From Nitrosomonas communis (GTDB lineage: Bacteria; Pseudomonadota; Gammaproteobacteria; Burkholderiales; Nitrosomonadaceae): a stretch of 64,000 nt of DNA. Position numbers and translations under genes: made by a program. The notes under the pieces were generated by a model. It saw only the letters and a list, made by a program, of their open reading frames with translations. It was not told where the DNA came from and made no database searches. Where the stretch lies: contig NZ_FOUB01000018.1 in assembly GCF_900114745.1 (NCBI RefSeq), positions 1 through 64,000 on the forward strand. Reading direction: 5' to 3'. Shown here piece after piece: positions 33,342-56,595 of this stretch. How positions within the stretch are numbered: the first letter of the stretch is position 1; every line of letters starts with the position of its first letter.

Positions 33342-33734
33342 CCCGAATTCTCCTGTCCAAATCAATTGTCTCAATACATTAGTTAGCCGATGCCATATGT
33401 CTCTTTTCCCCTGTGCAATCTGAACCTACGAGCTCAGCTTGCTGCGGGAAAGGGCCTGTTCCAAGCGGATCTTCCGCCAGGCTCATGACAAGCCTTGTGC
33501 GCTATCCAGCGATAAGAATCACTATCGTTACCTGGCGGCGGTGTTAACACCATGCCTGTGATCGGGTATGACTATTTAATCGTCCATATAAATTCTGCGG
33601 CCGCACAACGAACGTCCGGTCCAGATGTTGGACATCGAATTCCCCCATCCGGAACGTTTGAAATAGCGCCACTACTTGCAGTGTTGACACGCATTGCATA
33701 AACTTATCAGCTTATCCACCAAGCATCCTTACCC
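33342..33734. other. Region between TcA gene and RAYT remnant
   Basis: About 390 bp with no gene. It contains one of two GA(A/T)TTCCCCC(A/G)TCCGGAA repeats (33637-33659) that bracket the transposase remnant. As the region upstream of the TcA start it should hold a promoter or be transcribed through from the TcB-TcC gene; no clear promoter was identified. Confidence 0.5.
33637..33659. repeat. Direct repeat flanking the RAYT remnant (left)
   Basis: GAATTCCCCCATCCGGAACG plus TTT, repeated in direct orientation with three differences at 34276-34298. The two copies bracket the REP-associated transposase remnant, suggesting that they are the REP-type sequences it recognised or the borders of the inserted segment. 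Confidence 0.6.
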
Positions 33735-34452: not shown

Positions 34453-37400
34453 CTAAGGTACAAAAATATCTCCTTTGAGAATCCTCTCTTGACGGTACCG
34501 TTTCCTCTCCAATCGCTCGAGAGGGTCCAACTGCTTTCTGTACTCAACCGGTCCTGGACCATACTCTTGAAATTCTCTTATGCTCTGATAAGCCTTTATT
34601 CCTTCGTCAATCTTCTTCATGCCTTCTTCTATTTTTTCTTTGGCATACGATACCCCACCGAACGTAAAAAAATCTGCCGCTTCAATGGCTGCCGCATCGA
34701 TATCACCGTGAGCGAGATGCCACACAATCGTAGCACCTGACACGACAGCCCCGACGACCACTGCCGCCTTGCCGAGGAACTTCGCTCCTTGCAGTGCTTT
34801 ACCGCCATATCCCCTCCAGCGTCTGGCCGGCCCACTTTTCTTTTTTGTCCCCCCGCCACCACCGGTACCTTTGTCCCCAGCAGGTGTGCTGGTTTTCTTA
34901 CCTTCGAGCTCATCGATTTTTCGTTCCAAATCGTCTACTTCTGTTTCGGCCAAGCTTGCCTGATCCGCCTTGCCGTACCTGACATCGCCACGCTCCACAT
35001 TTGGATCGCCTCCCAGCTTCGTGACACGGCGTGCCAGGTTTTTTACAGTGCTTTGCGATTTCTTGATGTCTGCCTTAACCTGCCGCACACGTTCTCCTGC
35101 AATCTCCAGATCCGATCGAGTCAACCCGTAGTGGACCCGTTTCCTCAACAACTCCGCTTCGAGCTTCTGCTTTTGAGCCGCGAATCCAGCCTCTTTGGGG
35201 TTGAGTCCCTTGATATCCGACTCAAGCTGCTTGATGCTCGCTTCGGTGCTTTTGAGTTCCACTTCAAGCTGCCGCTGTGAGCTGAGCGTTTCTGGCAACC
35301 TGTTCTCCACTAAATCTTTCAGCTTTGTACGCTCATCGATCAGCGCGCTTTCTGCCTCGCTCACCTTATTCGAATTTCGTCCATTTCGATCCATGAAGTT
35401 GATCGGATTATTTCGGCTGAGCACGTACATATTGATGTGGTCCAGAATGCCAGCCGGATCGGTAGACAGCCACGTGCCAATCCATGGCGCGTAGTAACGT
35501 GCCCCATGATAGTTGAGCCCGCTTTCTTCATCCCGCTCCTTTCCCGTATACCGATACCGCTTCAGGCTTACCTCCGTGGCGCTTCGGTCCGCCTGGTATG
35601 ACGTGCTGCCGTAAGGGTAATATTCCTCGTAAGAGAGGATCTGCGCCTCCTCATCCAATTCCAAGGTAGCGGAACCGAGGTGATTTCCGAATTGATAACG
35701 GACTAATTTGGCCGGTGAACCATCGTTGCCCTGGGTCCGGATTTCTACCAACGCGATGCGTTGCTTATCGTCCATGATGTGCAGCGCCTCTCGCTTCAAT
35801 TCCACCGTGTTACCATCGTTCTCATATTCACGGTAAATCTCAAAGCCTCCCAAATAGATGCGCTCTTTCTTGCGTGTCGAGGTTTGACCGGCAGCGGCTT
35901 GACGTTCGGTCACTTTGCGCACGCGCTGTCCGGCTGCGTCGTATACATAGTAGGTGGTCTCCGGCGTGCCCTCGTTCACGACCTGCCGCGCGGTCGCCCG
36001 CAGCTGATCCTTGAAGTCCCACTGCATTAAGCTGAGGTGCCGCATGGTGGTCATGTTACCGTGAGCGTCGTGACTATGCGGCTCAGGAATCGGTTGGTTG
36101 CCGTTTGGGTGGGCAGTGGTACTGCTCAGACGGTTGCTTTTCTTGGCAGGTTCAATCAGACTGTCTTCGTTATAAGCATAACTGCGGATCCAATTGCTAT
36201 TCGCCGCCTGATGAATCAGTTGCTCGAAATTGCCAACCGCATCGTAATAGTACGTTTCGCTATAGCGGCGCATGGCCTGCCCATCGCCTGGGTGCGGCAA
36301 ATGCACTCGAAATTGATCATCCCAGGTGGTCTGCGGCTGGGAAGACTGGCCGATATGCTCGCGCCCCTTTGCCTGGATCAGGCGATAAACCGCGTCGTAG
36401 CTATAGTCATTGCTGGGCGTCACCACCTGATTGTTGAAATAGATCGTCTGCTGAGCGGCGTCCTCAATCTGCGTGATGTTACCTGCGGGGTCATAGGTAT
36501 AGTTCAGGTCCTGCAGCCGCGTCTGGTCGCTCAACCGCGTAGTCTTGAGGCGGATCAGACGGAAGGTCAAGACGTCATATTCATACTCGGTCTTAACCTG
36601 ATTGCCGTACTCGATGAGCACGCGCTGGCCCCTAGCGTTGTAGTCGATGTTGCGCACGAAAGGCATAGCCACCGCCGCGCCGTGCAGGTGGATGTCCACC
36701 TTCTCCAACAGATTGGCTTCGTTGAATGTGGGATGATAGACGCTCAAGTCCGGCGCGGTCTGTTCTGTCGCCCGGTTAAGGGCATCGTAGCGAGTGCGGC
36801 TGATATAGATATCGGTTTCCAACTGCTGAATGCTGTCGGACCAATCTACAGTGGTCTTGTAGGCCGGAATTCGAGTGCCTTGCGGGTCGACAAACTCGGC
36901 CAATTGGCGTTGGCTTCGTAAAAGATTGCTCTTGAAGTCGTACTCATCAGTGGTGGCAACGCCGGCCTGATCAAAGAGTTGAACCATCTTACCGCGCAGA
37001 TTGTTCGCCTCGGGATTGGGGCGGGTTTCACCATAAACCGTGCGTTCAATAAGAAACTCTGGTCCTGTGTCTTCGCGGAAAGAGGTTTCGATAGATCGAC
37101 GCAATGGATCGTAAGCTGTACGGAACTGGTGGTTGCGGCTATTCCAAGCGTAGAGCGGATTGCCAGCGACATCGTTCAGCATCCAGCGCTCGCCCGCCTC
37201 CATGCTGACTTGGTGGATGCGGTTGCTCAGCATGTCGTAGTCGTAGCGCATGACGATACGATCTTTGGCATCGATCACCTCACGCTGGTTGCCTTCGATG
37301 TCGAGCACCACGCGGGTGGCATAATGCTCCTCAATGAGCGCGCCGTTACGCTCGAAGCGGTTGTGCGCAATGGTTAGAAAAGTACGGCCGAGCGAATCTG

Positions 37401-40400
37401 TGTGAGCGATGGCAGGTGTTCCAGCATGCATGGCTGCTTTCTCGGCAGCCTGCCGCTCAGGATCTGCCGGTGGTCTGCTTATTCGTTCTTGATACCAAGT
37501 AGGCAAGTAATCCACAGCCGGCAGTCGACGGAAGAAATCGCCGGCATTGGCATCCGTCTTAGGATCGGCGATCAGCACGGTGTCGTTGATGTCCCAGGTT
37601 TCCTGCTGCCACGAGTCGACTATCACCTTTTCCCAGGTGTGATTGGGATGCAGCGTGGCCACGACCCGTTCGACCGGATCGTAGAACAGGATGGGACTGA
37701 CGCCGGTGTCCGTCATCTCCCTCTCTTGTTCATAAAGAGGGGTCGAGCTGAAGAAGGGTTCGTACTGCCTGACGGGCTTGCCTTTGTTGTTGAACACGGT
37801 ACGCCCGCTACCGACCCAGCGCTGTGGCGTATCGACTTGCACAGGTTTGCCGTTAGCATCGCGCACCAGCGCACCCTGCTGCACATCGCCAGAGGAAAGC
37901 ATCACGTCGGGGCCGCGCTGTGGTGCGTCGCCGCGCTCAGCCTGCATCTTTTTCTGGATCTCCCGGCCGAAGCCGTCGGAGTAGGAAAAGCCGACCTGGA
38001 TTTTCGTCTCTGGGCCACCAGGATCGAAGAAGTGCGTCTCCCGCGCCAGCGTCGCTATGAAAGGGGGTTGGCCACTGCGTAAATAGCGGTCGAGATCATA
38101 AACGATGCGGGTAGTGGCTTTGCCCAGCAGGGAGTCTGCCTGGCCGTGCGGGTCAGCGACGAAGGCTTGCAACGCCACGAGCGGCGGATCGGGATCGAAA
38201 TCTTCCAGCAGATCGCCGAGGGTTTGCCCGATCTTGCCCTTCACAGCAGTGGCGACCACCATGCCGAAGATGTCGAAGGCCACTTCGGAGCGGTTCCCAT
38301 TTGGGTCGGTCATTAACCGAGCTGCTAGTATGCGATAGTCGTTCTGTGCGCGAATTGTGTTGCTGAGCGCATCACGTGTCTCTACCGTGAGTAGCTTGTG
38401 ATCATCGTAGATGACAACGGTCTCGGTGTTATGTACGTCAGTATGGAACGGATTGCGGTAACGATGCGGTAAGAAAAAGTGACTCCGGGCATGGGTCAAC
38501 TCTGCTGCTGCATTGTCAGTTATATTTGGCGAGAAAAACACCCGACCGGATGGCAGCCACCAATGGTCATTTTTATCCAGATCGACATAACCGCCGCGCT
38601 CAGCGCCTCCACCTTCCAGCACATCTGCGGGATTGGCCGGAAGCAAACTCTGGCCGTTGCGCTTATAGACGTTATTTAAAAGGCCTGGCGTGAAAGTAAG
38701 CTGATAACTTTCGCCCGGTAAGGCCTGCGATTCCATCTTGCCCAACGGTAAAAATATAAGGGGGTTATTGTTCTGGACTGCTCCGAGGTCATCTGGCCGG
38801 TAGTATGTGCGCACCTGCTCGATCCACCGCTTCTGCAATATACTCGCAGCCGGGTTCTGCTCATAATCAATAGGCACAGCACCAGCGCCAGCAGTTAGCA
38901 TCTCTGTTACGGTAAAACGGTTCTGTCCCATGGGTAGGTGCAGTCCAGTCAGCTCAAAGCAGCGCGACTCACTGGGCAGCGGGCTACGATAAACGTCGGC
39001 ATCCTCAATGGCATTAGTTACATTATTTTCTCTGTAGGTGACGTGAATTTCAGTCTGCTTAGTCTGGGCTTCTACCGACAAAGTCGGGTCCGGTTGGCGG
39101 CGGCCGTAACCAATAGCCGCCGATTTCAGCACATTACCGAAGCCATCTACCTCGAGCGTCAGCACATGGGAAATACGCGGATCACTCGGGTTACGTTCAT
39201 AGTGATAGCTGACAGCTTCTCGGGTGTGGGTGAAGAAGACCGCATGGCGGTTTTTGTCACGCGGCTGCAAAAGCCGGACGGTAAAGTTCTGCTCGACAAC
39301 ATTATAGGGATGCTTTGCTTTATCCGTGCCATCCAGCGCATATACCTCCTGACGCAGCATAGCACCTTTCAGCGCGCGACAGGCTTCGCGCTCTTCCTCG
39401 ACCGTTAAATCTTCAGGCAGCACGGTATCTTCAAGCAAAAGCTGCCTCGCTTGAATATCACTCAGCCCTGGCTCGCGGTAATACTCACCAACGTCCCTTT
39501 CATTCAACAGTCCGGCGAAAAAATTGGTGACATGACCGCGACCAAGATAAATCCCGGTATGAAACCAGGTTTTGGTATGAACAGGCGCCACATGAGAGGT
39601 TTCGTCGATATTACTGGCTGCTTCCTCACCTCCTATCGGGGCAAAGGAGCTGAATTGTTCAGTGTCAAACTGTTCCACCATGCCGAAGCCACGGAACTCT
39701 CGTTCCTCGCCATCGAAGTAACCGTGGTGATAAGCATAGCGCGTGACGAAATAGTTATTGCTGATATGATCGAATGTCTCGACTCGTTCAACCACATGTA
39801 CTGGGAACGGCAAACGGGTGACCCAGGGCTTTCCTTCCTGTTTGTCTTTTAAATAAAAATAGGTGGAAGGGAGGTATTTCACCCGAGTTTCGGCACCTAG
39901 ATTATTGATGGTCTTGATGAGCAAATGCGGTTTATGCTCCCCCATCAAGTTCACATAACGCATGGGCCGTTGCATATCCCTTTGTAATGGCGATGACCAC
40001 ACCAGACAAGCAGTACCATTTCCGAGCAAATCAGTAGGAGCGATATTGACCAAATCATCTACACGAGAAAAAACGTTTAAATACACCGGCTCACTCCAGC
40101 TATTACCTGATTGGTTGAAATACAGGCGTATACCCTCGCGGTGTAGATAAATTACATCGGTGGTGCCAGTGCCATCAATATCAGCCAGTCGAATGCGTTC
40201 GTGCTCGAATTCAGTTGGATTGTCGAAAAAAGGGGGATGATCCATAGCTATCTTGGCACCGAAACGACCATAGCCAAGGTTGGGCCAGTAGCAGATCTCA
40301 CCATTTCGGATACGTACTAAATCAGTAAGGCCATCACCGCTTAAATCAGCCAGATAGATGGATTGCGTAGCATCAGCGAATATCAAGCGAGGGCCTTTCT

Positions 40401-42171
40401 CTTCATCCAGGGATTGAGCCATTCTTTGTGCCGGGCCAAAGCCGTTTTCTGCCAGTGAGGCATGCCAGATAAAAGCTTCATCTTCTGTAATCAGCACGTC
40501 GGCATGACCATCCCCATCCAGATCAATAAATTTGAGGTTTGGACTGCGCATCTCATGATTTGGCAGTGACTTAAATGGGCGAAAGGATTGCCAGCCTTCC
40601 TCTTCATCATGCTCGTACAAACCGGGTATGGTGTTATCTAACATCACCAGGTCTGGCTGGCCATCCCCTGCTAAATCCATAAACTGCGCACCACCAGCCA
40701 GAGCTAGATTGGGTTTGGTCATGACATGCTCAATCGGCGCAAATTCGACTGGCTGCTTGCTTGTCAAATTGAAATTCCTGGGGCTCAGATTACGTTTGTA
40801 ATACCAAGCAGCTCCTTGCTCGGTCAGGATACCAGGAATACCCTCCCCATGCAGATCAGTCCATTGATAGCTTGCACCATCTACACCGATGGGCAAATTT
40901 TCCAGGCTAACAGGATCGACTTCCTCGACTATATCCTGGACGATGGGTTGGGTGTACTCGAATTCGAGAGGTGGCAGGCTGCGTTTTAGATAGGTATTGC
41001 CATTACGTTTGTAGCCAGCTTGGGTCACTTGCTTTAAAAAAGTATAAACAGGATTGCGAGCACTGATTGGATCTTGCTCATGAGAGTAGTTAAAGTCAGT
41101 AGAACGTACCAGGCAATTTTCTCCTACCCCTTCCTCTTCCGGGAAGTGATGGAACATGAGCACACGCTGACATAAGCGAGTGGTACGTACTTCAAAACCT
41201 GCACGGTAGGTGGAAAATGGGTCAAGACGGAAATTCCATTGACCTGAATCATTTGGCTGCGGTGCATTGACATCGTGCTCACCATAATCGAACACAACCT
41301 CAAACATCCAATCCAATTGTGTGTCCCTCAGAAAAGAAGGGCGATGCCCGTTATCATCTAGCGCAGTTTTTCGGTTGCCATATTTGATATGCTTTAGATA
41401 GCGATTGACCGCACGATGAGTATCATCACGTGCACCGCGATTGCGCTCATGCACGTAGCCCAAGTCGACGCCATCGCCATTTTCCGATTTGTATTCATAG
41501 AGAACTACATTGCCCTTGTCATCACAGATTTCGCAGATCAACCAGGAAAAGATATGGGTAGAATTCTTGGGATCCGAGATGCGTGCAGCAGCATCTTTAC
41601 CATAAAGCGTTAGGATGTTGTCCTTGGAGAGAGAACGCCAATGAATCTCACCGGTTTCAGTATTGGTCCATCGCTCGATACGAGCAAATAATCCTTCGGT
41701 ACGAGGCCGGTAGCGGTAGAGACGATAGGATGTACCCTCAATATTTCGTATATCACTCCAACGTGAACCATCCTCCTTCAGCAGCGGGACCAAATCTTCT
41801 GAGCCGAATAGTATAAACTCATCGGATTCTTCAGCCTCTTGATATTTGGGCAAGCCTTTGTCGGTCTTGCGAGTGATAGAGGGAATCGAAAGGCTCCAAC
41901 CAAAGCCAAAGGTGCCATTGCCGGCACCTGAGTCATATGACAATGAAAGCTGCGGACCAAAACCGGACCGCCCTGAGCTGGTGGCAATCGGTAAGCTTAT
42001 TGAACCTGTGCCTGTAACCGGATTGGCAGTAAATTTTTCACCTATACCACGAATGGCGCCGCCGCCTTTGGGTAGTGTTATTGAGGGGGCAGCGTTTGAG
42101 ATTGCCTGTCTATGCGACGTTTCACCTTCTTTACTTGCGCCAGAATTGGTTGAACGTGATGAATATTCCAC
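34453..42171 (-). CDS. Fused TcB-TcC toxin protein with unrecognised C-terminal domain
   Basis: A protein of about 2572 residues joining TcB and TcC. The N-terminus is SpvB-like (SLPIATSSGRSGFGPQLSLS). A beta-propeller follows at about 500-690 with repeated D-x-D-G-D-G motifs (LDLDGDGHADVLIT, LSGDGLTDLVRI). Then come the TcdB middle regions and RHS/YD repeats to the core motif GLNYHGARYYAPWIGTWLS and NPINFMDRNG at about 2207-2265. The C-terminal 300 or so residues are the variable payload: a long coiled coil, a GTGGGGG linker and a hydrophobic segment (AAVVVGAVVSGATIVW). The start is the GTG at 42171, with GGAAGGAG just upstream; an earlier GTG at 42222 lacks a site. Confidence 0.9.
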   Translation of the reverse strand: MEYSSRSTNSGASKEGETSHRQAISNAAPSITLPKGGGAIRGIGEKFTANPVTGTGSISLPIATSSGRSGFGPQLSLSYDSGAGNGTFGFGWSLSIPSITRKTDKGLPKYQEAEESDEFILFGSEDLVPLLKEDGSRWSDIRNIEGTSYRLYRYRPRTEGLFARIERWTNTETGEIHWRSLSKDNILTLYGKDAAARISDPKNSTHIFSWLICEICDDKGNVVLYEYKSENGDGVDLGYVHERNRGARDDTHRAVNRYLKHIKYGNRKTALDDNGHRPSFLRDTQLDWMFEVVFDYGEHDVNAPQPNDSGQWNFRLDPFSTYRAGFEVRTTRLCQRVLMFHHFPEEEGVGENCLVRSTDFNYSHEQDPISARNPVYTFLKQVTQAGYKRNGNTYLKRSLPPLEFEYTQPIVQDIVEEVDPVSLENLPIGVDGASYQWTDLHGEGIPGILTEQGAAWYYKRNLSPRNFNLTSKQPVEFAPIEHVMTKPNLALAGGAQFMDLAGDGQPDLVMLDNTIPGLYEHDEEEGWQSFRPFKSLPNHEMRSPNLKFIDLDGDGHADVLITEDEAFIWHASLAENGFGPAQRMAQSLDEEKGPRLIFADATQSIYLADLSGDGLTDLVRIRNGEICYWPNLGYGRFGAKIAMDHPPFFDNPTEFEHERIRLADIDGTGTTDVIYLHREGIRLYFNQSGNSWSEPVYLNVFSRVDDLVNIAPTDLLGNGTACLVWSSPLQRDMQRPMRYVNLMGEHKPHLLIKTINNLGAETRVKYLPSTYFYLKDKQEGKPWVTRLPFPVHVVERVETFDHISNNYFVTRYAYHHGYFDGEEREFRGFGMVEQFDTEQFSSFAPIGGEEAASNIDETSHVAPVHTKTWFHTGIYLGRGHVTNFFAGLLNERDVGEYYREPGLSDIQARQLLLEDTVLPEDLTVEEEREACRALKGAMLRQEVYALDGTDKAKHPYNVVEQNFTVRLLQPRDKNRHAVFFTHTREAVSYHYERNPSDPRISHVLTLEVDGFGNVLKSAAIGYGRRQPDPTLSVEAQTKQTEIHVTYRENNVTNAIEDADVYRSPLPSESRCFELTGLHLPMGQNRFTVTEMLTAGAGAVPIDYEQNPAASILQKRWIEQVRTYYRPDDLGAVQNNNPLIFLPLGKMESQALPGESYQLTFTPGLLNNVYKRNGQSLLPANPADVLEGGGAERGGYVDLDKNDHWWLPSGRVFFSPNITDNAAAELTHARSHFFLPHRYRNPFHTDVHNTETVVIYDDHKLLTVETRDALSNTIRAQNDYRILAARLMTDPNGNRSEVAFDIFGMVVATAVKGKIGQTLGDLLEDFDPDPPLVALQAFVADPHGQADSLLGKATTRIVYDLDRYLRSGQPPFIATLARETHFFDPGGPETKIQVGFSYSDGFGREIQKKMQAERGDAPQRGPDVMLSSGDVQQGALVRDANGKPVQVDTPQRWVGSGRTVFNNKGKPVRQYEPFFSSTPLYEQEREMTDTGVSPILFYDPVERVVATLHPNHTWEKVIVDSWQQETWDINDTVLIADPKTDANAGDFFRRLPAVDYLPTWYQERISRPPADPERQAAEKAAMHAGTPAIAHTDSLGRTFLTIAHNRFERNGALIEEHYATRVVLDIEGNQREVIDAKDRIVMRYDYDMLSNRIHQVSMEAGERWMLNDVAGNPLYAWNSRNHQFRTAYDPLRRSIETSFREDTGPEFLIERTVYGETRPNPEANNLRGKMVQLFDQAGVATTDEYDFKSNLLRSQRQLAEFVDPQGTRIPAYKTTVDWSDSIQQLETDIYISRTRYDALNRATEQTAPDLSVYHPTFNEANLLEKVDIHLHGAAVAMPFVRNIDYNARGQRVLIEYGNQVKTEYEYDVLTFRLIRLKTTRLSDQTRLQDLNYTYDPAGNITQIEDAAQQTIYFNNQVVTPSNDYSYDAVYRLIQAKGREHIGQSSQPQTTWDDQFRVHLPHPGDGQAMRRYSETYYYDAVGNFEQLIHQAANSNWIRSYAYNEDSLIEPAKKSNRLSSTTAHPNGNQPIPEPHSHDAHGNMTTMRHLSLMQWDFKDQLRATARQVVNEGTPETTYYVYDAAGQRVRKVTERQAAAGQTSTRKKERIYLGGFEIYREYENDGNTVELKREALHIMDDKQRIALVEIRTQGNDGSPAKLVRYQFGNHLGSATLELDEEAQILSYEEYYPYGSTSYQADRSATEVSLKRYRYTGKERDEESGLNYHGARYYAPWIGTWLSTDPAGILDHINMYVLSRNNPINFMDRNGRNSNKVSEAESALIDERTKLKDLVENRLPETLSSQRQLEVELKSTEASIKQLESDIKGLNPKEAGFAAQKQKLEAELLRKRVHYGLTRSDLEIAGERVRQVKADIKKSQSTVKNLARRVTKLGGDPNVERGDVRYGKADQASLAETEVDDLERKIDELEGKKTSTPAGDKGTGGGGGTKKKSGPARRWRGYGGKALQGAKFLGKAAVVVGAVVSGATIVWHLAHGDIDAAAIEAADFFTFGGVSYAKEKIEEGMKKIDEGIKAYQSIREFQEYGPGPVEYRKQLDPLERLERKRYRQERILKGDIFVP

Positions 42172-42249
42172 TCCTACTCCTTCCAGTGAAGATTCATGAA
42201 GCGTTACGCATGAACATAGCACCTCAAATAGGGCAAAAGCTAGGGACTA

Positions 42250-48545: not shown

Positions 48546-48697
48546 ATTCCATTTTCAGATCAAACATGACGCCAAGGCGAGCCGCAGGCAGGTTAAATAA
48601 TACGACAAGGTGAAGCCGACAAAGTCAGTTTTGATTTAGAAATGGAATGATACGGCAAGGAGAGCTGGCAGAGTCAAATTTGATTGAGAAATGGAAT
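48546..48697 (-). repeat. Family A element, tandem one-and-a-half copies
   Basis: A full reverse-oriented copy (48546-48648, ATTCCATTTTCAGATCAAAC to GATTTAGAAATGGAAT) is followed directly by an extra partial right end reaching 48697 (TTTGATTGAGAAATGGAAT). It fills the gap between the converging ubiE and apbE genes. The duplicated end suggests slippage, unequal exchange or nested insertion. Confidence 0.85.
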
Positions 48698-48712
48698 CAT
48701 CTCTTTGATCAA

Positions 48713-49615
48713 TCAGCATTCTTCCGTGAGCGAACCTCCCACTTGCCCATCAACATCTACCCACAAATGAGGTAAACCAAGCTCAGCAAGCCAATCTTTG
48801 CCTTGCTGCTCTTTTAGCATCCCGATCGTTGAAGCGCTGCCCGCAATAACACAAAAATCACCTACTACACTTACTGCAGCCATTCGGTTTACAGGCCAGC
48901 CTGTCTTTGGGTTGAGCACATGACCATAACGGATGCCATTTATGGTAATACAGCGCTCATAATCCCCACTGCTGGCAACTGCACCTGAATATAGCTCTAG
49001 CGTTTGTAATAACGTATCGGGACGACGCGGGTGACATATCCCGACTCGCCAGGGACTGCCGTCCGCATGCGGGCCAATAATTTTGATATCTCCTCCCAAA
49101 TTGATCATGCCATGATGAATGCCCCTATCCCAACATATCGTAGCAGCACGATCTACTGCGTATTCTTTAACGACACCACCCAGGTCAATCTCCATGCCAG
49201 CAAGCGGGAATTCAAGCACAGGCGAGGCCCACCTCAATTTATGCCAGCCAATTTTATCCAGCAAGGCTTGAATAACCGCTTCATCCGGTAACTGATTTGA
49301 TTTAAAATCCCAGGCACGGCGCAAAATACCCGAGGTAATGTCAAAAAGCTCATCACTCTCCCGATAACAGGTGTCTGCGTAATCCAACAAGCCGGCTGTT
49401 TCGTTATCGACAATAATACTTCCTCCTTCCGCTGCGATCCGATTAATCTCAGACAAAAAGCTACTTTCACGATAACGGGAATAAATCGATTCTAATCGAT
49501 GAATATCAGAAATTGCTGCATCCATAGCACGCCCAGCTTTAGTCTCGGTTACAGCATAAATCTGTATTTCACAAGGCGTGCCCATCGCTTTAAACGGAAA
49601 ACGGTACAGTTTCAT
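48713..49615 (-). CDS. apbE: FAD:protein FMN transferase (ApbE family)
   Basis: A 300-residue ApbE-family enzyme that transfers FMN from FAD onto a Thr or Ser of target proteins. Visible motifs are MGTPCEIQIYA, YSRYRESSFLSEINR, ELFDITSGILRRAWDF, LGGVVKEYAVDRA, MINLGGDIKIIG and GHVLNPKTGWPV. No signal peptide or lipobox is present and an upstream in-frame stop leaves no room for one, unlike most Gram-negative ApbE proteins. Flavinylation may therefore be cytoplasmic, or this branch is exported otherwise. It is the last gene of the same-strand cluster whose DUF3570 protein carries a flavinylation-like motif. Confidence 0.9.
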   Translation of the reverse strand: MKLYRFPFKAMGTPCEIQIYAVTETKAGRAMDAAISDIHRLESIYSRYRESSFLSEINRIAAEGGSIIVDNETAGLLDYADTCYRESDELFDITSGILRRAWDFKSNQLPDEAVIQALLDKIGWHKLRWASPVLEFPLAGMEIDLGGVVKEYAVDRAATICWDRGIHHGMINLGGDIKIIGPHADGSPWRVGICHPRRPDTLLQTLELYSGAVASSGDYERCITINGIRYGHVLNPKTGWPVNRMAAVSVVGDFCVIAGSASTIGMLKEQQGKDWLAELGLPHLWVDVDGQVGGSLTEEC

Positions 49616-50009
49616 TAAAAAGGGAATACTCAGGTAGTCATTCAGACAATTCTAGAACCTTTATTTTCATTTCTATAACCAATGAGACGAGTTATACGCA
49701 TCCAGGTTCTTTCAAATAAATTAAAATGAGTAAATAATAAATTATTTACTTTGTCACTTTTTAACGACAAATTTTCTGGAATCTTAACTAAGATAGAAAT
49801 TTCTTGCAGTAAATTACTTATAAACTCACTGCGATCATTGAATAATGTTTGGCTGAGTGCGAGAAAATATTATAGTTTAGTTGCTACGGCTCGCCTTCGT
49901 GTTATATTTGATTTGGAAATGGATTTAGCTGCGCTTTACAATCTGCTGGTTTTCCAACCAGCTACCTCAAGAAGCGAATAATTAAATCCAAAATACACTA
50001 AAGGGCACC
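49616..50009. other. Gap between apbE and the DUF3570 gene, with repeat fragments
   Basis: 394 bp without a gene. It contains the right 43 bp of a family A element (49883-49925, GGCTCGCCTTCG through TTTGATTTGGAAATGGA). Next to the DUF3570 stop it holds a family B-type end (AGGGCACCCTAAAA, 50002-50015) that overlaps the stop codon itself. The rest is AT-rich. Confidence 0.6.
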
Positions 50010-52769
50010 CTAAAAGCTATAATGCCAAGTAGCTGATAACCCGCCCTTACGCTCAAGCTGAAAACCATTCACATCCTGATGCAGTGGTTGCACCCATTCG
50101 AAAGCAAAGTGATTGCCAGCAAACTTGCCACTCGGTACCGAAGCGTTTACACCGATGCCTATATCCCAGTAATGTCCTCCTTGATTCTCAGGGAAATCCA
50201 TCGGCCCAATACGCGCATTAAACTGGTTGAAATCTCCGTGTATTCTATCGCGGTAGGTATAAACGCCTCGCACTGATGCCCCCAGCCAATGAGTCAAATG
50301 ATACCCTCCCCAGGTAGAGGCTTGAAAAATATCACCGAGTCGATAGCCCGATTCGTTACTGCTTTCCATTCGCTTGACGCCATAAAGCTGGGTTCCCCAG
50401 TACCAGCGATTGCTTTTCCCAGTATACGTCACATTAGGCATGAAATCCCACGTGCCGCTTCCTAGCTGCATGTCAAAGTGAATAAGCCCTCCATCGGCCT
50501 GAAACATACGCCGAAGTTCCAAGTCTACTTTTCCGGTTGGTGCACTGACACCTAAGCCCACATGTAGACCATGCCCAGGTAAATTTAGCAACTTGTAAAG
50601 TGACATCAGAATGGTGTCACCGACACCGCCGGTTGTATGCCCACCAATGCCAGTATGCTCGTGGACACCCGGCGTGGGTGGTGGGCGCCCGGTAAGCTCA
50701 CGTAAATTCATGTCCATATCCACGAATTGCGGCATGATCATTAGATTCAACCAGCGGGTGGGTGCATACATAATATCGAGCATGTGCATTCTCATGCTCA
50801 TATCTTTCGGGGCAAAGCGGCACAATGCGAGGTCGCTACAACCTTGATTGACAATCGCCTGATCGCTGGCATGGTGTGTTCCATGCAACATATCGCCTGT
50901 TTGACGTGAATACATGAAGCGGTATCCCACCATCAATTCACCTGGATTACCCAGCATGTGTCCAAACATAATACTTGCCGGGACATGATCTATCCCATGT
51001 ACATGCTGTTGGCCATGGCCATTATCCGCATGGTTATGCTGGTTTTTTTTATTCACCCGGGAGTTAATGGCATCCATATCAACTTTTATTGCAGCATTGG
51101 CAACGTAAAAATCAAAATCAGCAAAACTGCTATGACCATTTCCACCTAGTTTAAGCGCGCTGGCCCGCGTGTAATATTCAAAGGCTGCTTCTAATTCGAC
51201 TCCTTTGGCAAATTTCTTATTAACTACAAAGCCGCCGCTCAATGAACCAAAACCAGACAATCGGTGATCACTAGAAAAGCTTTTAGGTAGCTTGGCAGCA
51301 TCAAATGAAACCAACTGAGGTTGTAAATTAAGTTCAGTTGCATCAATTGGATTGCCATTCACATCGAAAAAGTTACCATTGCCATTACGAAAAAATTGTT
51401 GATTGGGATTATCCGAATTAACCCAGATTTGCCGCCCCGATGCATCGATAGCAGGGCTACGAAATGCCTGAGTAGAAATGAGAAAAGGGTTATAAAAATC
51501 AGCTGAATCTTGTGAGTAATAGCGAATTCGAGGCGTAACAGTCAAACCATAACCCAGTGGTTGCACCCAATCCGCTTCAAAAGTATGCGCATGGATTCCC
51601 CAATCATCGAATGAGAATTGGTAATTCAGATGAAGAGCAGCATCCAATGGGCTAATATGCTGCACGAATTTACTACCTAACGCCAGTTGATTGCGGATAT
51701 TGGGTCGCTGCTCCAATAAGGCACGCGCATCACCCATTATGGGGACATTGGGATCAGGACTGATGGCATTTGGGTTAACAAAAATAACCGTCATTACTTT
51801 ATACGGATTTTCCATAAACCCACTACTATGGGTATAACCGATGTTGGTATCAATCAGCGAGTTCTTACCAAGGACCTGAGTCAAGCCTAAATTAGCTGTC
51901 CAATCCTGTCGATCGCCTTGTAATATATCCGAGCCACTGCGCCGTTCGATTTGATTGGCATAAGCGGTCGTAGTTAAATAAGGCACAAGATCTGGGTCGA
52001 GAATGGCGGATGTTTCACTGCTGGTATAAGCTGCTCCATATTTCAAGCTGGTTAACTTCTGATTGAAATCGAGACGACCGCTGATATTGCCATAACTGGA
52101 TTTATAATCCCTTTCTAATGAAAATCCCCCTCCCACATTAAGCGCCGCCTCATTCCATTCATAACCCAGTTTAAAATTTGCCTGATTACGTGTTTCAGGC
52201 GATGCGGAAGACAGAACCAGTACATTACGTGAATCAACAACTTGTCCAGCATCGGGTGTGAGTCTAAGTGGATTTAAATTATGATCCAGCAAAACCTGGG
52301 TATTGACGAAAGGAGAGGCCCCAACGGTAACCACTCCATTGGGTGAGTTTTGCAGAATCGGCCGATTTCCATTCGCCACTAAAGGCGCTGTTGTAACAGG
52401 CGTCGCACCCGACCACGTATCCTGAGTATAGTTAAAGGAAAACTTAACTCGATCATAGAAGGTAAAATTGCCACTTCCATGGATTACATCAACCGTAATA
52501 GGCTTCAGGTTGCTATGTACATTGTAAAGATTGCGTTTACCTTCTTCATAGCGGATATATTGGAAACTGACGTTGTCACTACTGGGATTTGCACCGTGTG
52601 CAGAAGACAGTAACAAACCCGGCAAAACAAGCGCGGCAGAAGTCAATGCTTGCAGCGCTGTTTTACTGGAAGGAGAAGCTGAATTGGCTTTTAAATCGCT
52701 AGATTCAAGTTCCTCGGCTGAATATTGAGTTGAGCCAGCTAAGAGTGGATCGTTCAAACCTATTTTCAT
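50010..52769 (-). CDS. DUF3570-type outer-membrane beta-barrel with flavinylation-like motif
   Basis: A 919-residue exported protein. The signal (about 38-57, ALTSAALVLPGLLLSSA) ends at an S-S-A site before H58. The N-terminal half has DUF3570 character: FQYIRYEEGKRNLYNV and the segment D117-T-W-S-G-A-T123, which fits the D-x-x-S-G-A-T motif flavinylated by ApbE, with T123 as candidate acceptor. The C-terminal part (about 650-919) resembles MetA-type outer-membrane barrels (LPGHGLHVGLGVSAPTGKVD) and ends in Phe. Between them lie His-rich (HNHADNGHGQQHVHGIDH; HEHTGIGGH) and Met-rich (DMSMRMHMLDIMY) stretches suggesting metal binding. Encoded 8 bp after the DUF4266 lipoprotein. Confidence 0.8.
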   Translation of the reverse strand: MKIGLNDPLLAGSTQYSAEELESSDLKANSASPSSKTALQALTSAALVLPGLLLSSAHGANPSSDNVSFQYIRYEEGKRNLYNVHSNLKPITVDVIHGSGNFTFYDRVKFSFNYTQDTWSGATPVTTAPLVANGNRPILQNSPNGVVTVGASPFVNTQVLLDHNLNPLRLTPDAGQVVDSRNVLVLSSASPETRNQANFKLGYEWNEAALNVGGGFSLERDYKSSYGNISGRLDFNQKLTSLKYGAAYTSSETSAILDPDLVPYLTTTAYANQIERRSGSDILQGDRQDWTANLGLTQVLGKNSLIDTNIGYTHSSGFMENPYKVMTVIFVNPNAISPDPNVPIMGDARALLEQRPNIRNQLALGSKFVQHISPLDAALHLNYQFSFDDWGIHAHTFEADWVQPLGYGLTVTPRIRYYSQDSADFYNPFLISTQAFRSPAIDASGRQIWVNSDNPNQQFFRNGNGNFFDVNGNPIDATELNLQPQLVSFDAAKLPKSFSSDHRLSGFGSLSGGFVVNKKFAKGVELEAAFEYYTRASALKLGGNGHSSFADFDFYVANAAIKVDMDAINSRVNKKNQHNHADNGHGQQHVHGIDHVPASIMFGHMLGNPGELMVGYRFMYSRQTGDMLHGTHHASDQAIVNQGCSDLALCRFAPKDMSMRMHMLDIMYAPTRWLNLMIMPQFVDMDMNLRELTGRPPPTPGVHEHTGIGGHTTGGVGDTILMSLYKLLNLPGHGLHVGLGVSAPTGKVDLELRRMFQADGGLIHFDMQLGSGTWDFMPNVTYTGKSNRWYWGTQLYGVKRMESSNESGYRLGDIFQASTWGGYHLTHWLGASVRGVYTYRDRIHGDFNQFNARIGPMDFPENQGGHYWDIGIGVNASVPSGKFAGNHFAFEWVQPLHQDVNGFQLERKGGLSATWHYSF

Positions 52770-52777
52770 GATATGGC

Positions 52778-53005
52778 TTAGAAACAGCCACAGCCGCCGC
52801 CTCCCCCCGAAGAATTAATGCTGGCAGCAGCTTCACGACTACCATAAACGTGCGCCTGAATAGCGCTTTGTAATGGGTTAGGCTCCAGCGCCATTTCCGG
52901 TTTGGCAAGATTACCACGCTCCCAGGCCGCTACATGGACACAGCCTGATAATCCCGATACGCTGAGTAAAATAGCGAAAATGACAACAAAATGAGTGACT
53001 TTCAT
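52778..53005 (-). CDS. DUF4266-type small lipoprotein with Gly-Cys tail
   Basis: A 75-residue predicted lipoprotein (MKVTHFVVIFAILLSVSGLS then GC lipobox). The mature part has the recurring pattern WERGNLAKPEMALEPNPLQ, HVYGSREAA and the C-terminal tail SSGGGGGCGCF. Two cysteines in the tail could bind metal or be a thiol substrate of the adjacent TlpA-type thioredoxin. The ATG at 53005 is preferred because it gives a classic lipoprotein signal; a TTG at 53017 is also possible. Such proteins are known to me as DUF4266, function unknown, recurring beside DUF3570 proteins. Confidence 0.8.
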   Translation of the reverse strand: MKVTHFVVIFAILLSVSGLSGCVHVAAWERGNLAKPEMALEPNPLQSAIQAHVYGSREAAASINSSGGGGGCGCF

Positions 53006-53058
53006 CAATGAAGTCAAGCTAAAAATTTTTATACCGTTACTATGAATATCAACTAGCT

Positions 53059-53574
53059 CTATAGTTCTTCTTGCAGCAATTCCTCAATCAAACCACGCAA
53101 CTCTTCAGTTTCCCCAGTCCGGAAACCACGATGAATATGTCGGACCAAACCTCTTTTGTCAATGATATAAGTGGACGGCATGGCCATCACTTTGAAGTCT
53201 TGAGCGCAGCGTTTACTGGTATCGACCATAATAGAGAAATTAACAGGACGCTTGGCAAGAAATTCCTTAGCATCTTCAAGATTTTCGTCCAGATTAATGC
53301 CGATCACCTTCAGACCTTTGTCTTTAAATTCATGCATTAATTGGCTCATGAAGGGAAACGATTTCACACACGGAGGACACCAGGAAGCCCAGAAATCAAC
53401 ATAAATCACTTCACCTTTCATTGCCTCCCAATCTTCAGCAGATTTTCCATCCAAAGAAATCAACTGACAATGCGGCGGCGGCGTATTTCCTTCCAGGTGC
53501 GCCCTGACAGGCGTTACCATAGAAAGGCACAATATCAGGCTGGCTGAAAATAATAAACTCGTTTGCTTGGTCAT
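53059..53574 (-). CDS. TlpA/ResA-type periplasmic thioredoxin
   Basis: A 171-residue thioredoxin-fold protein with signal peptide (1-25, ending TPVRA), so that His26 would be the mature N-terminus. The active site is DFWASWC66-P-P-C69, with the cis-proline segment AMPSTYIIDKRG and central VIGINLDENLEDA insertion typical of TlpA/ResA proteins. An extra cysteine pair (C36, and C in SKRCAQDF) is notable. It acts in the periplasm as a disulfide reductase or isomerase; the DUF4266 Cys tail next door is a natural substrate candidate. The gap to the lipoprotein gene is 53 bp. Confidence 0.9.
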   Translation of the reverse strand: MTKQTSLLFSASLILCLSMVTPVRAHLEGNTPPPHCQLISLDGKSAEDWEAMKGEVIYVDFWASWCPPCVKSFPFMSQLMHEFKDKGLKVIGINLDENLEDAKEFLAKRPVNFSIMVDTSKRCAQDFKVMAMPSTYIIDKRGLVRHIHRGFRTGETEELRGLIEELLQEEL

Positions 53575-53610
53575 TTTAGTAAAAATTTATGATCATCATC
53601 AAAATTGAGA

Positions 53611-54075
53611 TTATTCGAACTGATCCACCACAATATCTGTACCGGTATGCACGCCTGTAGCAGTGTTGCAATGCCATTCAACTTCAAAATCCCGAACACC
53701 GGCAATCGTTTTGTCCGCCATCATAAAATACGTTCCGTTACCTCCTTGCAATGTTACAAATGGGCTGAATTCGGCATCACCCGGTGTGGTATCGGTAATA
53801 CTGATTGCTTTGCTGCCTTTATGCAGCTGGAGGCTGACAAACATGCCAGGTGTGGCAGGAGAGTTATCGCGAATACGAGCAACAAGATGATCAGGCGGCC
53901 CATTGCCATCATCAAGGCAGGTCACGCGCGCCAACGCTGTAAACGTTGCCTTGTTGCCAGCAGGATCAAGCGTCGCACCCCCACCATGTGCACTGATCGT
54001 TGCAGTATAACCAGCAATTAAGGTCAAACTTACCACCATCAATACTTTTTGCAGAAATAAATGGTTCTTTGCCAT
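53611..54075 (-). CDS. Secreted protein of unknown function
   Basis: A 154-residue protein with signal peptide 1-29 ending ATISA, giving a predicted mature N-terminus HGGGATLDPAG. The mature part is beta-rich with two cysteines (RVTCLDDG and EWHCNTAT) and an acidic tail. I do not recognise the family. AGAGGAAAAG precedes the ATG. It is encoded 36 bp upstream of the TlpA-type gene in the same direction and is probably part of the same operon. The N-terminal His and the neighbours suggest metal binding, unproven. Confidence 0.75.
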   Translation of the reverse strand: MAKNHLFLQKVLMVVSLTLIAGYTATISAHGGGATLDPAGNKATFTALARVTCLDDGNGPPDHLVARIRDNSPATPGMFVSLQLHKGSKAISITDTTPGDAEFSPFVTLQGGNGTYFMMADKTIAGVRDFEVEWHCNTATGVHTGTDIVVDQFE

Positions 54076-54244
54076 GTTTTCTTTTCCTCTTTCTTACTCT
54101 TCTTTCAAATATTCAATTAATTTAATCATTAAAAACATATGGGTAAGAGCATTATCGAATCAACTTCATTTTTCACAATTTTTTAGCAATGGCTCGCAAG
54201 CATACCCGTTTTAACTGACTAAAAAAATCATCTATCTTTATTGA

Positions 54245-54273
54245 TGCAAACGAGATTCACGATCTCGTTTGCA
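54245..54273 (-). terminator. 12-bp perfect hairpin after the YcnI-like gene
   Basis: TGCAAACGAGAT - TCACG - ATCTCGTTTGCA forms a perfect 12-bp stem with a 5-base loop, 17 bp beyond the stop codon of the minus-strand gene at 54290. A T-rich tract (GATTTTTTTAG) lies about 25 bases further on the minus strand. It is probably a terminator or attenuator between this gene and the rest of the cluster. Confidence 0.65.
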
Positions 54274-54289
54274 CATGTCTAGTATAACG

Positions 54290-55033
54290 CTATTGAGGCC
54301 AAACTTGCTGACCTTCGAACTTAATCGGCATATCACGGTTGATCTGGGCAGCTGACGGCTTCACCTCGACATCGACACCCGCACTGCATGAGCTAGGTAG
54401 CGGATTCTTCGTTAAATCACGATTAATTGTTAATGGAGCGGGACCATCATCTTCCGCACTCACACGATCAAACGGCGTTCCCAGATTATTATGCGTCCAT
54501 AAATCAACAACTCCCTCCACACCAAATTGATCTACACCTGTAATCTTGCAAATAGTCGCAATAGACACATAGACTTTTACACTATTGGCACAAGATGCCG
54601 GCTCAATACTAGGTGCAGTCAATCTAAACTGTGTGGCCATGGTGAGATTGTGTGGCACACCTGGTCCCCCACCTGCCCAGAATCCAACCACATTGCCATT
54701 CGGGTCTGTTTTTTCGTCCATATGATCAAATACAGCACGATTAAAAATGAGTTGAGCGTTATTTCCGTAATTTGTCAAAAAATCTGTTATTGGACCACTA
54801 TGGGGTTGGCCATTCACCAGAATAGTTGAATCAATCCCATCAGGAAAAACAACTGACGTTCCAATGGCATTATTTTCGCCACAGGTATGACCTAGCAAGT
54901 GATTAATGGCACGAGTGCCTTCAGTCATAGTCGGTATATCTAACCTTGTATGTGCCAGCACACTTTGCCCCACACTTACCAGCATAGTCGTAACCAAAGT
55001 CAGCGTTAATATTTTAAGCTTTCTTTTTTTCAT
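54290..55033 (-). CDS. Secreted protein, YcnI/DUF1775-like features
   Basis: About 247 residues. A signal peptide with strongly basic start (MKKRKLKILTLTLVTTMLVS) ends SVLA, predicting mature N-terminus HTRLDIPTMTEG. The start of the mature protein, then GHTCGENNAIGTSVVFPDG, resembles the DUF1775/YcnI copper proteins, in which the N-terminal His takes part in Cu binding; the match is loose. Six or so cysteines are likely paired. The start is placed at the ATG preceded by AAAGGGCAAT; an ATG six codons earlier (55051) lacks a site. It is the first gene of the minus-strand cluster, below the paired palindromes. Confidence 0.65.
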   Translation of the reverse strand: MKKRKLKILTLTLVTTMLVSVGQSVLAHTRLDIPTMTEGTRAINHLLGHTCGENNAIGTSVVFPDGIDSTILVNGQPHSGPITDFLTNYGNNAQLIFNRAVFDHMDEKTDPNGNVVGFWAGGGPGVPHNLTMATQFRLTAPSIEPASCANSVKVYVSIATICKITGVDQFGVEGVVDLWTHNNLGTPFDRVSAEDDGPAPLTINRDLTKNPLPSSCSAGVDVEVKPSAAQINRDMPIKFEGQQVWPQ

Positions 55034-55220
55034 ATTGCCCTTTTTACTCATTTTTTATACGTTTATGATTTAATCAAGAAGCAGTCCAAAAGACTCATCC
55101 CAGCTACCGGGTTAATTTATTAATTGAAAATGAAACTAGAGTACCGGTGACTAATCATCTTTTTGCAAAGGAAAGAGGAATAGTCACAAACATTATCTGG
55201 TCTGCTCAAATAAATAACAA

Positions 55221-55237
55221 TGCGACAAATTGTCGCA
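55221..55237. promoter_or_regulatory. 17-bp palindrome (operator candidate 1)
   Basis: TGCGACAAATTGTCGCA: 8-bp perfect arms around one central base. It lies 188 bp upstream of the YcnI-like gene's start. The reverse complement occurs at 55347-55363. The binding protein is unknown. Confidence 0.7.
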
Positions 55238-55346: not shown

Positions 55347-55363
55347 TGCGACAATTTGTCGCA
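55347..55363. promoter_or_regulatory. 17-bp palindrome (operator candidate 2)
   Basis: TGCGACAATTTGTCGCA, the exact reverse complement of site 1. The centres are 126 bp apart, close to twelve DNA turns, so a protein bound at both would face the same side of the helix. This is typical of dimeric activators or of loop-forming repressors. Confidence 0.7.
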
Positions 55364-55992: not shown

Positions 55993-56595
55993 TCAAACTG
56001 TAAAGACAATCATATCTGCCGTAATATCGTTTAAATTGATACCAATAAGGTCGATCGATGCTTCTGATCCGAATTCCACCTTAACTCCATCCGCTCTTTG
56101 GTTAATATTTGTTATTAAGGGAGCGAGCTGTTCGAGACTATTAATTCCAATCTTCTCAGAATCAAAAAATAAGCGATCTTGGCCAATAGTAAAATCGGTT
56201 ACCCGAAAATGCCCCAATGCATAAAAACCAAACGTATCGTTCTCACTCCCCCCCGTCAACTGATCACGACCATGGCCAGCACGAAGAATATCATCACCTG
56301 CGCCACCAAAGAGCTTATCGGTTCCTAACCCACCATCCAGGTCATCATTGCCAGCATCGCCATCCAATGTATCGTTACCATCTCCACCTGTTAATGTATC
56401 GTTTCCAGCCTCTCCTTCTATTTCGTCATGACCGGATCCGCCTTCAAGGACGTTATCCGTTTCATCACCAATAATCAGCAAATCATTTTCGTTAAATCCA
56501 CCCGAACCGAAACCGAGAAATTGGATGCCATCGATTATCTCAAAAATATTCCCAGAATTGCTGAGATTGGGACGAGGTTGAGTACTCACAGCCAT
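55993..56595 (-). CDS. Short RTX-repeat (haemolysin-type calcium-binding) protein
   Basis: A 200-residue protein with about six nonapeptide RTX repeats (about 47-120; for example GGSGHDEIEG, GGDGNDTLDG, GGAGDDILRA), which bind Ca2+ and form a beta roll, and a C-terminal region of about 75 residues that could act as a type I secretion signal. There is no N-terminal signal peptide. No enzymatic domain is present, so it is not a toxin by itself; adhesin or matrix roles are possible. The ribosome site AAGGAGATAAC is strong. No type I secretion genes are adjacent, but an ABC/HlyD/TolC-type set lies 3.4 kb away. Confidence 0.88.
   Translation of the reverse strand: MAVSTQPRPNLSNSGNIFEIIDGIQFLGFGSGGFNENDLLIIGDETDNVLEGGSGHDEIEGEAGNDTLTGGDGNDTLDGDAGNDDLDGGLGTDKLFGGAGDDILRAGHGRDQLTGGSENDTFGFYALGHFRVTDFTIGQDRLFFDSEKIGINSLEQLAPLITNINQRADGVKVEFGSEASIDLIGINLNDITADMIVFTV

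Follow-up and report, generated by a model that had tools for sequence, protein, structure and literature searches.

What do six adjacent genes do that combine a flavin transferase, a thioredoxin, an outer-membrane-type barrel and secreted proteins? We addressed this question for a cassette of Nitrosomonas communis that lies in a window of 64,000 nucleotides of contig NZ_FOUB01000018.1, the window being the whole stretch of DNA that was analyzed. The original prediction of six same-strand genes at this place was confirmed, as all six are on the minus strand at 48713-55051 and Pfam recovered the expected families for ApbE, DUF3570, DUF4266 and the thioredoxin (Redoxin). The predicted end at 55033 is an internal Met start of a frame that runs to 55051. 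The genes are transcribed in the order SecB, SecA, thioredoxin, DUF4266, DUF3570 and ApbE, where SecB and SecA are working names for secreted proteins of 253 and 154 aa, respectively, and where the DUF3570 protein is a fusion whose C-terminal barrel is termed METBARREL. Gaps of 214 bp (SecB-SecA), 36 bp (SecA-thioredoxin), 53 bp (thioredoxin-DUF4266) and 8 bp (DUF4266-DUF3570) are followed by a repeat-free DUF3570-ApbE gap of 394 bp (49616-50009) that exceeds that of many relatives. Just 3' of apbE, at 48546-48700, there are two copies of a 38-nt direct repeat (82% alike) and a 25-nt inverted copy. On the other side, a 200-aa protein with RTX-like GGxGxDxL repeats, as judged by eye, adjoins the cassette (55993-56595, minus strand). 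The window also holds two giant minus-strand open reading frames of 3464 and 2589 aa (22980-33374 and 34453-42222), which by eye we take to resemble large subunits of an insecticidal-type toxin complex.

Throughout the genus the six proteins have relatives in the same order, each in 43 to 51 of 51 loci, which is more than expected by chance. Specifically, DUF3570 and DUF4266 have relatives in all 51 loci, the thioredoxin in 50, SecA in 49, SecB in 47 and ApbE in 43. This set consists of the window plus 50 loci fetched around DUF4266 matches, several of which stop at contig borders, and one locus (L031) contains DUF4266 and a short DUF3570 alone. Since our search found DUF4266 in 49 of 61 genus genomes, some Nitrosomonas members are without the cassette, and N. 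europaea ATCC 25978 has SecB in a locus that lacks DUF3570. Loci with SecB relatives, considering the best 80 of 127, are mostly from Nitrosomonas and include N. europaea, N. ureae, N. communis and N. oligotropha. A search of 40 genomes from three other genera of the family returned no SecB in any of them, with Nitrosomonas itself as the sole match, indicating that SecB is not generally required in the family. Some genomes (those of L032, L063, L068 and L080) have more than one DUF4266 place, and one cassette copy adjoins genes that by eye look like RND-type metal efflux.

The core of the cassette belongs to a system that is already in the literature. Meheust et al. (2021; PMC8238504) reported flavinylation of a DUF3570 protein from Chlorobium luteolum, where the ApbE of this organism modifies two [S/T]GA[S/T] sites, and their text gives 316 clusters with ApbE, DUF3570, thioredoxin and DUF4266 but without DsbD, together with 227 DUF3570-containing clusters among those with DsbD. 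The suspected co-occurrence of DUF3570 and DUF4266 with ApbE and a thioredoxin was thus already answered by these clusters. As described in that text, the published system has the same four core genes, flavin motifs and Cys-X-Cys tail as the Nitrosomonas cassette; the cassette differs by the addition of a Met/His-rich barrel fusion, SecA, SecB and an operator. DsbD, which some of the published clusters contain and which is not obligatory (PMC8238504), is absent from the Nitrosomonas cluster and is encoded elsewhere in the N. communis genome (G000:C94). The claim of an undescribed system therefore has to be narrowed to, at most, the Nitrosomonas form with its fusion, two secreted proteins and operator, and Nitrosomonas may be included in the supplementary lists of PMC8238504. 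The more general proposal of extracytoplasmic electron transfer or metal handling fits, although its electron-transfer part is not new (PMC8238504).

The fusion protein of 919 aa (50010-52769, minus strand) matches Pfam DUF3570 (2.2e-110) over residues 40-555 only, and its DUF3570 half comprises residues 1-559 (51093-52769, minus; 4.6e-111). In line with the original prediction there are flavinylation-like motifs, two in all, with SGAT at residues 120-123 (52401-52412, minus) being a strict match to [S/T]GA[S/T], and VGAS at residues 149-152 (52314-52325, minus) being relaxed at its first position. Motif 1 reads SGAT or AGAT and motif 2 contains GASP in 46 of 46 genus DUF3570 proteins of at least 850 aa, a set that leaves aside split or cut copies in L057, L068, L069 and L080. 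These are the predicted FMN attachment sites of the fusion. The small DUF4266 lipoprotein (52778-53005 from its ATG, minus; Pfam 5e-20) is Cys-tailed as predicted, with an LSGC lipobox (by eye) and a tail of ...GGGGGCGCF, in which the Cys-X-Cys is encoded at 52784-52792; this C-terminal CXC is shared by all 63 DUF4266 frames from class loci. The thioredoxin (53059-53574, minus; Pfam Redoxin 4e-23) is of the TlpA/ResA type with a CPPC active site and, by eye, a signal peptide. ApbE, the FAD:protein FMN transferase (48713-49615, minus; Pfam 5e-72), has only 10 residues ahead of its MGT/MGS motif, and 14 or fewer are present in 35 of 41 genus ApbEs. Judged from these sequences the genus ApbE has no room for a signal peptide, and flavinylation may therefore precede export. 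Among ApbEs of the wider class the domain start could be placed in 11 of 31 proteins, 5 of which have a hydrophobic leader. In 60 other class loci (L179-L238), adjacent ApbE and a strict motif are only loosely associated (19/26 vs 13/34, p 0.01), suggesting that the wider family may not always need flavin. Again, 21 of these 60 loci have the thioredoxin/DUF4266/DUF3570 set but lack both a strict motif and an adjacent ApbE, and the thiol part may thus work without flavin.

A feature that sets the Nitrosomonas protein apart is its C-terminal part, a predicted second barrel that the original prediction overlooked. The His/Met-rich stretches that it did point out are real, as the mean Met content across the 46 genus proteins is 6.4% in the C-terminal part vs 0.8% in the DUF3570 part, and the linker at residues 557-596 (50982-51101, minus) averages 15% His. 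Behind this linker, METBARREL (residues 597-919; 50013-50981, minus) is a Met/His-rich, Phenol_MetA_deg-like barrel as judged from a borderline PF13557 match and from stand-alone homologues. When residues 560-919 were scanned alone they matched PF13557 at 5.3e-5 (23.8 bits vs a cut-off of 22), a match that is unlisted in the whole-protein scan, and the stand-alone homologue of genome G360 scores 36.4. Such stand-alone homologues occur in many genera.

We surveyed 369 genomes from 271 genera of the class, 90 of which have DUF4266. Profile searches for SecB, SecA and the barrel located the fusion in four genomes only (G000, G006, G234 and G309). All four carry SecA and SecB and the other 86 DUF4266 genomes carry neither (Fisher 4e-7, or 9e-6 with Nitrosomonas counted once), where absence was judged from inspection of 60 loci and, less firmly for the remaining 26, from genome searches that are not exhaustive, as the SecB of G234 was missed and then recovered by profile in the fetched locus, and as a frameshift-broken fusion would escape. 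In the 60 inspected loci the barrel is neither fused nor nearby, there is no SecA or SecB in the stretch, and DUF3570 is a separate protein in each (59 proteins of 367-517 aa, with that of L199 split into two frames). This four-out-of-four pattern reflects co-inheritance, not independent origins, and the three fusion lineages may share the fusion by horizontal transfer. There are variations among them, as G309 encodes SecA and SecB in a single gene and the ApbE of G234 is a 69-aa fragment. A further genome, G360, has SecB and a separate barrel that is accompanied by a thioredoxin and a gene for a dihaem-type cytochrome, and a search of this genome did not find DUF4266; in G360 SecB thus goes with the barrel and not with DUF4266.

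The step downstream of the flavin relay is suggested by stand-alone barrels. We analyzed 20 such loci, taken from the head of a 75-genome list, with the barrel position in 4 of the 20 taken from the genome profile search. Together with G360, which is the only case where SecB is beside a stand-alone barrel, 10 of 21 loci show the order barrel, small cytochrome c, thioredoxin, and the one representative cytochrome that was assigned to a family is of the dihaem type (PF09626). These loci resemble the cassette in having the barrel, the operator described below and an accompanying thioredoxin, and they are often near RegB/RegA-like genes (RegB-like in 13 of the 20, RegA-like in 12). They differ in their electron carrier, which is a dihaem-type cytochrome as opposed to the DUF3570/ApbE flavin of the cassette. 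By analogy, the conserved principle seems to be a barrel paired with an electron carrier, and the flavin may replace the cytochrome in Nitrosomonas. This gene order is also what an outer-membrane electron conduit would predict, one that serves redox balancing or an extracellular acceptor, with flavin in place of the dihaem-type cytochrome and with the metal proteins being incidental. Both the flavin/cytochrome redundancy described in PMC8238504 and the redox type of the predicted operator are congruent with a conduit. However, the six genes include no terminal reductase or multihaem protein, and a conduit leaves SecA and SecB, which are co-inherited with the fusion, without a role. We regard it as improbable.

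Of the two secreted proteins, which had been described as being of unknown function, SecA (53611-54075, minus) is a predicted beta-sandwich that matches no Pfam or NCBIfam family above cut-off, and SecB (54290-55051, minus) is a distant YcnI/DUF1775 relative. SecB has only matches below curated cut-offs, to a signal-region model, and does not match Pfam DUF1775; a bridging relative (L174) passes the DUF1775 cut-off (29.6 vs 25), and a fold comparison assigned SecB to the YcnI fold. His34, the likely mature N-terminus given the predicted cleavage, is invariant in 57 of 57 aligned SecBs and is the first residue aligned, opposite His27 of YcnI. Such pairing of N-termini is expected since solved YcnI chains start at residue 27 and the domains align end to end. 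SecB Trp185 is likewise invariant and aligns with a Trp of four DUF1775 proteins, with its match to YcnI Trp137 being by alignment only. Relative to the Cu(II)-binding YcnI/DUF1775 proteins, SecB differs in having no equivalent of YcnI Glu50 (that stretch contains His55 and Cys57), an extra C-terminal part of ~40 residues, a position below the Pfam cut-off and other gene company; the YcnI paper notes that family members without the Glu are mainly proteobacterial. SecA also has a likely mature N-terminal His (His30), and its Cys53, Cys136, His135 and His143 are invariant. The idea of copper, which was originally taken from the His/Met-rich stretches, thus gains the SecB-YcnI relation, and copper as the probable substrate rests on homology, residue pattern and composition. 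The SecB relatives also disclosed a second recurring Nitrosomonas set (L162, L166, L167 and L170) of SecA, a BNR-repeat protein, a thioredoxin-like protein and SecB with operator-like sites, and in L168 and L171 a SecB paralogue is just upstream of genes that by eye look like cytochrome c maturation genes.

Conserved cysteines in both SecA and SecB would also suit a maturation system, in which the thioredoxin and DUF4266 keep cysteines of secreted proteins or cuproproteins reduced for metal loading. TlpA-type proteins are indeed known to help load metal into respiratory oxidases. This explanation leaves ApbE, the conserved flavin motifs and the barrel fusion unaccounted for, and we consider it very unlikely.

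Upstream of SecB are two exact 17 bp palindromes, also overlooked in the original prediction, that are 126 bp apart. Palindrome 1 (TGCGACAAATTGTCGCA, 55221-55237) starts 170 bp and palindrome 2 (TGCGACAATTTGTCGCA, 55347-55363) starts 296 bp upstream of SecB. With up to 2 mismatches allowed, the window is expected to hold 0.02 occurrences of the pattern, and the two are the only copies in the 4.4 Mb N. communis genome at up to 1 mismatch. The best sites upstream of SecA/SecB in the 51 genus loci have 0, 1 or 2 mismatches in 28, 16 and 3 cases, respectively, and 5 mismatches in one case, with three loci not assessable. A site with no more than 2 mismatches over 14 fixed positions thus precedes the cassette in 47 of 48 assessable loci as compared with 0 of 113 shuffled stretches, where each locus is scored by the best of one to four upstream stretches, each shuffle is a single stretch, and the operator shuffles keep base or two-base-block composition only. 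Sites at the same threshold are upstream of 17 of 20 stand-alone barrels in other genera (1/400 shuffles) and of none of 60 unfused DUF3570 clusters, where the best sites have 3 to 6 mismatches. This indicates that the predicted operator is a part of the barrel/SecB module, and that the fusion therefore brings the flavin relay under its control.

A candidate regulator of this predicted operator, as suggested by binding-site similarity, is RegA. Of the 11 specified positions in the RegR box of B. japonicum that is given in PMC5506826, GNGRCRTTNNGNCGC, the window sites fit 9 or 10, depending on the strand, and a TTT variant found in relatives fits all 11. A homologue encoded in the N. communis genome shares 78% identity with a RegA-like protein of Nitrosomonas. 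Published boxes of the RegA family are degenerate, and the authors who list them report having found no motif in their own species (PMC5506826). Against a RegA switch, one or two of the 11 fixed RegR-box positions are not matched by the window sites, and two sites in the genome (at up to 1 mismatch) is narrow for a global redox regulator. The putative cassette operator also differs from known RegA/RegR/PrrA sites in being a near-perfect palindrome that is rare in its own genome.

Outside the cassette, GCGACA-N3-TGTCGC is found 187 times in 61 Nitrosomonas genomes vs 14 times for the reversed pattern, among the matches listed. We sampled 40 stretches from 10 genomes, with most cassette sites left out, and the 47 genes near the 43 operator sites include 8 FecI-type sigma factors, 6 TonB-receptor plugs, 4 TonB, 3 PepSY_TM and 3 BNR proteins. 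One SecB, multicopper-oxidase-like proteins and a RegB-like kinase (L352) are also present, and many others are unrelated singletons. These genes look like a metal/redox envelope regulon that does not itself specify the metal. In L340 and L354 the operator precedes secreted proteins of no Pfam family with a mature N-terminus near AHEGEP, possibly further N-terminal-His proteins, each followed by an open frame that by eye may be a TonB-dependent receptor.

TonB, FecI-type sigma factors, TonB-dependent receptors and PepSY proteins are the usual company of iron uptake, and their presence behind same-type operators counts against copper. They would fit an accessory of reductive iron assimilation, with Fe(III) being reduced by flavin and thiols on the outer membrane or beyond it, and with the N-terminal-His proteins having a structural role or binding iron. 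Met-rich sites, on the other hand, suit Cu(I) over iron by their coordination chemistry, SecB is related to a copper protein family, and the cassette is without a known iron gene. In addition, the palindrome is unlike the Fur box given for N. europaea fur, TAATAATACGTATCTTTAT (PMC3050691). For the core system, Meheust et al. call the function uncertain and consider an iron role possible since 25 clusters hold a VIT1 iron transporter, and the word 'copper' does not occur in the main text of their paper (PMC8238504). Overall, we view the iron explanation as unlikely.

The reading that we prefer, with a probability of roughly 0.45, is that the cassette is a composite envelope redox system in which a thiol/flavin relay and a metal module, probably for copper, are placed under a RegA/RegR-type switch. 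The direction in which we infer electrons and metal to flow is as follows. DsbD, encoded elsewhere in the genome, would probably be the electron source that reduces the thioredoxin, and electrons would then pass from its CPPC site to the C-terminal Cys-X-Cys of DUF4266 and on to FMN attached to DUF3570 by ApbE. SecB, and perhaps SecA, would hold Cu(II) through the N-terminal His, the DUF3570 flavin would reduce Cu(II) to Cu(I), and the Met-rich barrel fused behind the His-rich linker would bind or pass Cu(I). A redox response regulator of the RegA/RegR type would switch the whole via TGCGACA-N3-TGTCGCA. Since a relative of a Cu(II)-binding protein adjoins a Met-rich barrel, the simplest use of the electrons would be to convert Cu(II) to Cu(I). 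Points against the copper reading are the regulon described above, the missing equivalent of Glu50 and the position of SecB itself outside Pfam DUF1775. A more specific version is a reductive copper-acquisition machine, where N-terminal-His proteins catch Cu(II), the flavinylated double-barrel reduces it and the Met-lined barrel imports Cu(I) under a redox two-component switch. We hold this specific version to be doubtful.

The function of the DUF3570 flavin system has been unsettled since the system was described in 2021, and the barrel fusion, the co-inheritance of a YcnI-like protein and the common operator provide a concrete and testable substrate hypothesis for it. The original interpretation is partly supported, and the Nitrosomonas form, comprising the fusion, SecA, SecB and the operator, is best described as a variant of this known system with a copper hypothesis that can be tested. 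The operator links an envelope redox and metal-uptake gene set to one switch. Ammonia oxidisers have a large copper demand, and to our knowledge the passage of copper across the outer membrane of Gram-negative bacteria is poorly known. If true, the copper machine would be a bacterial counterpart of the yeast route of copper uptake, which pairs a reductase with a Met-rich transporter.
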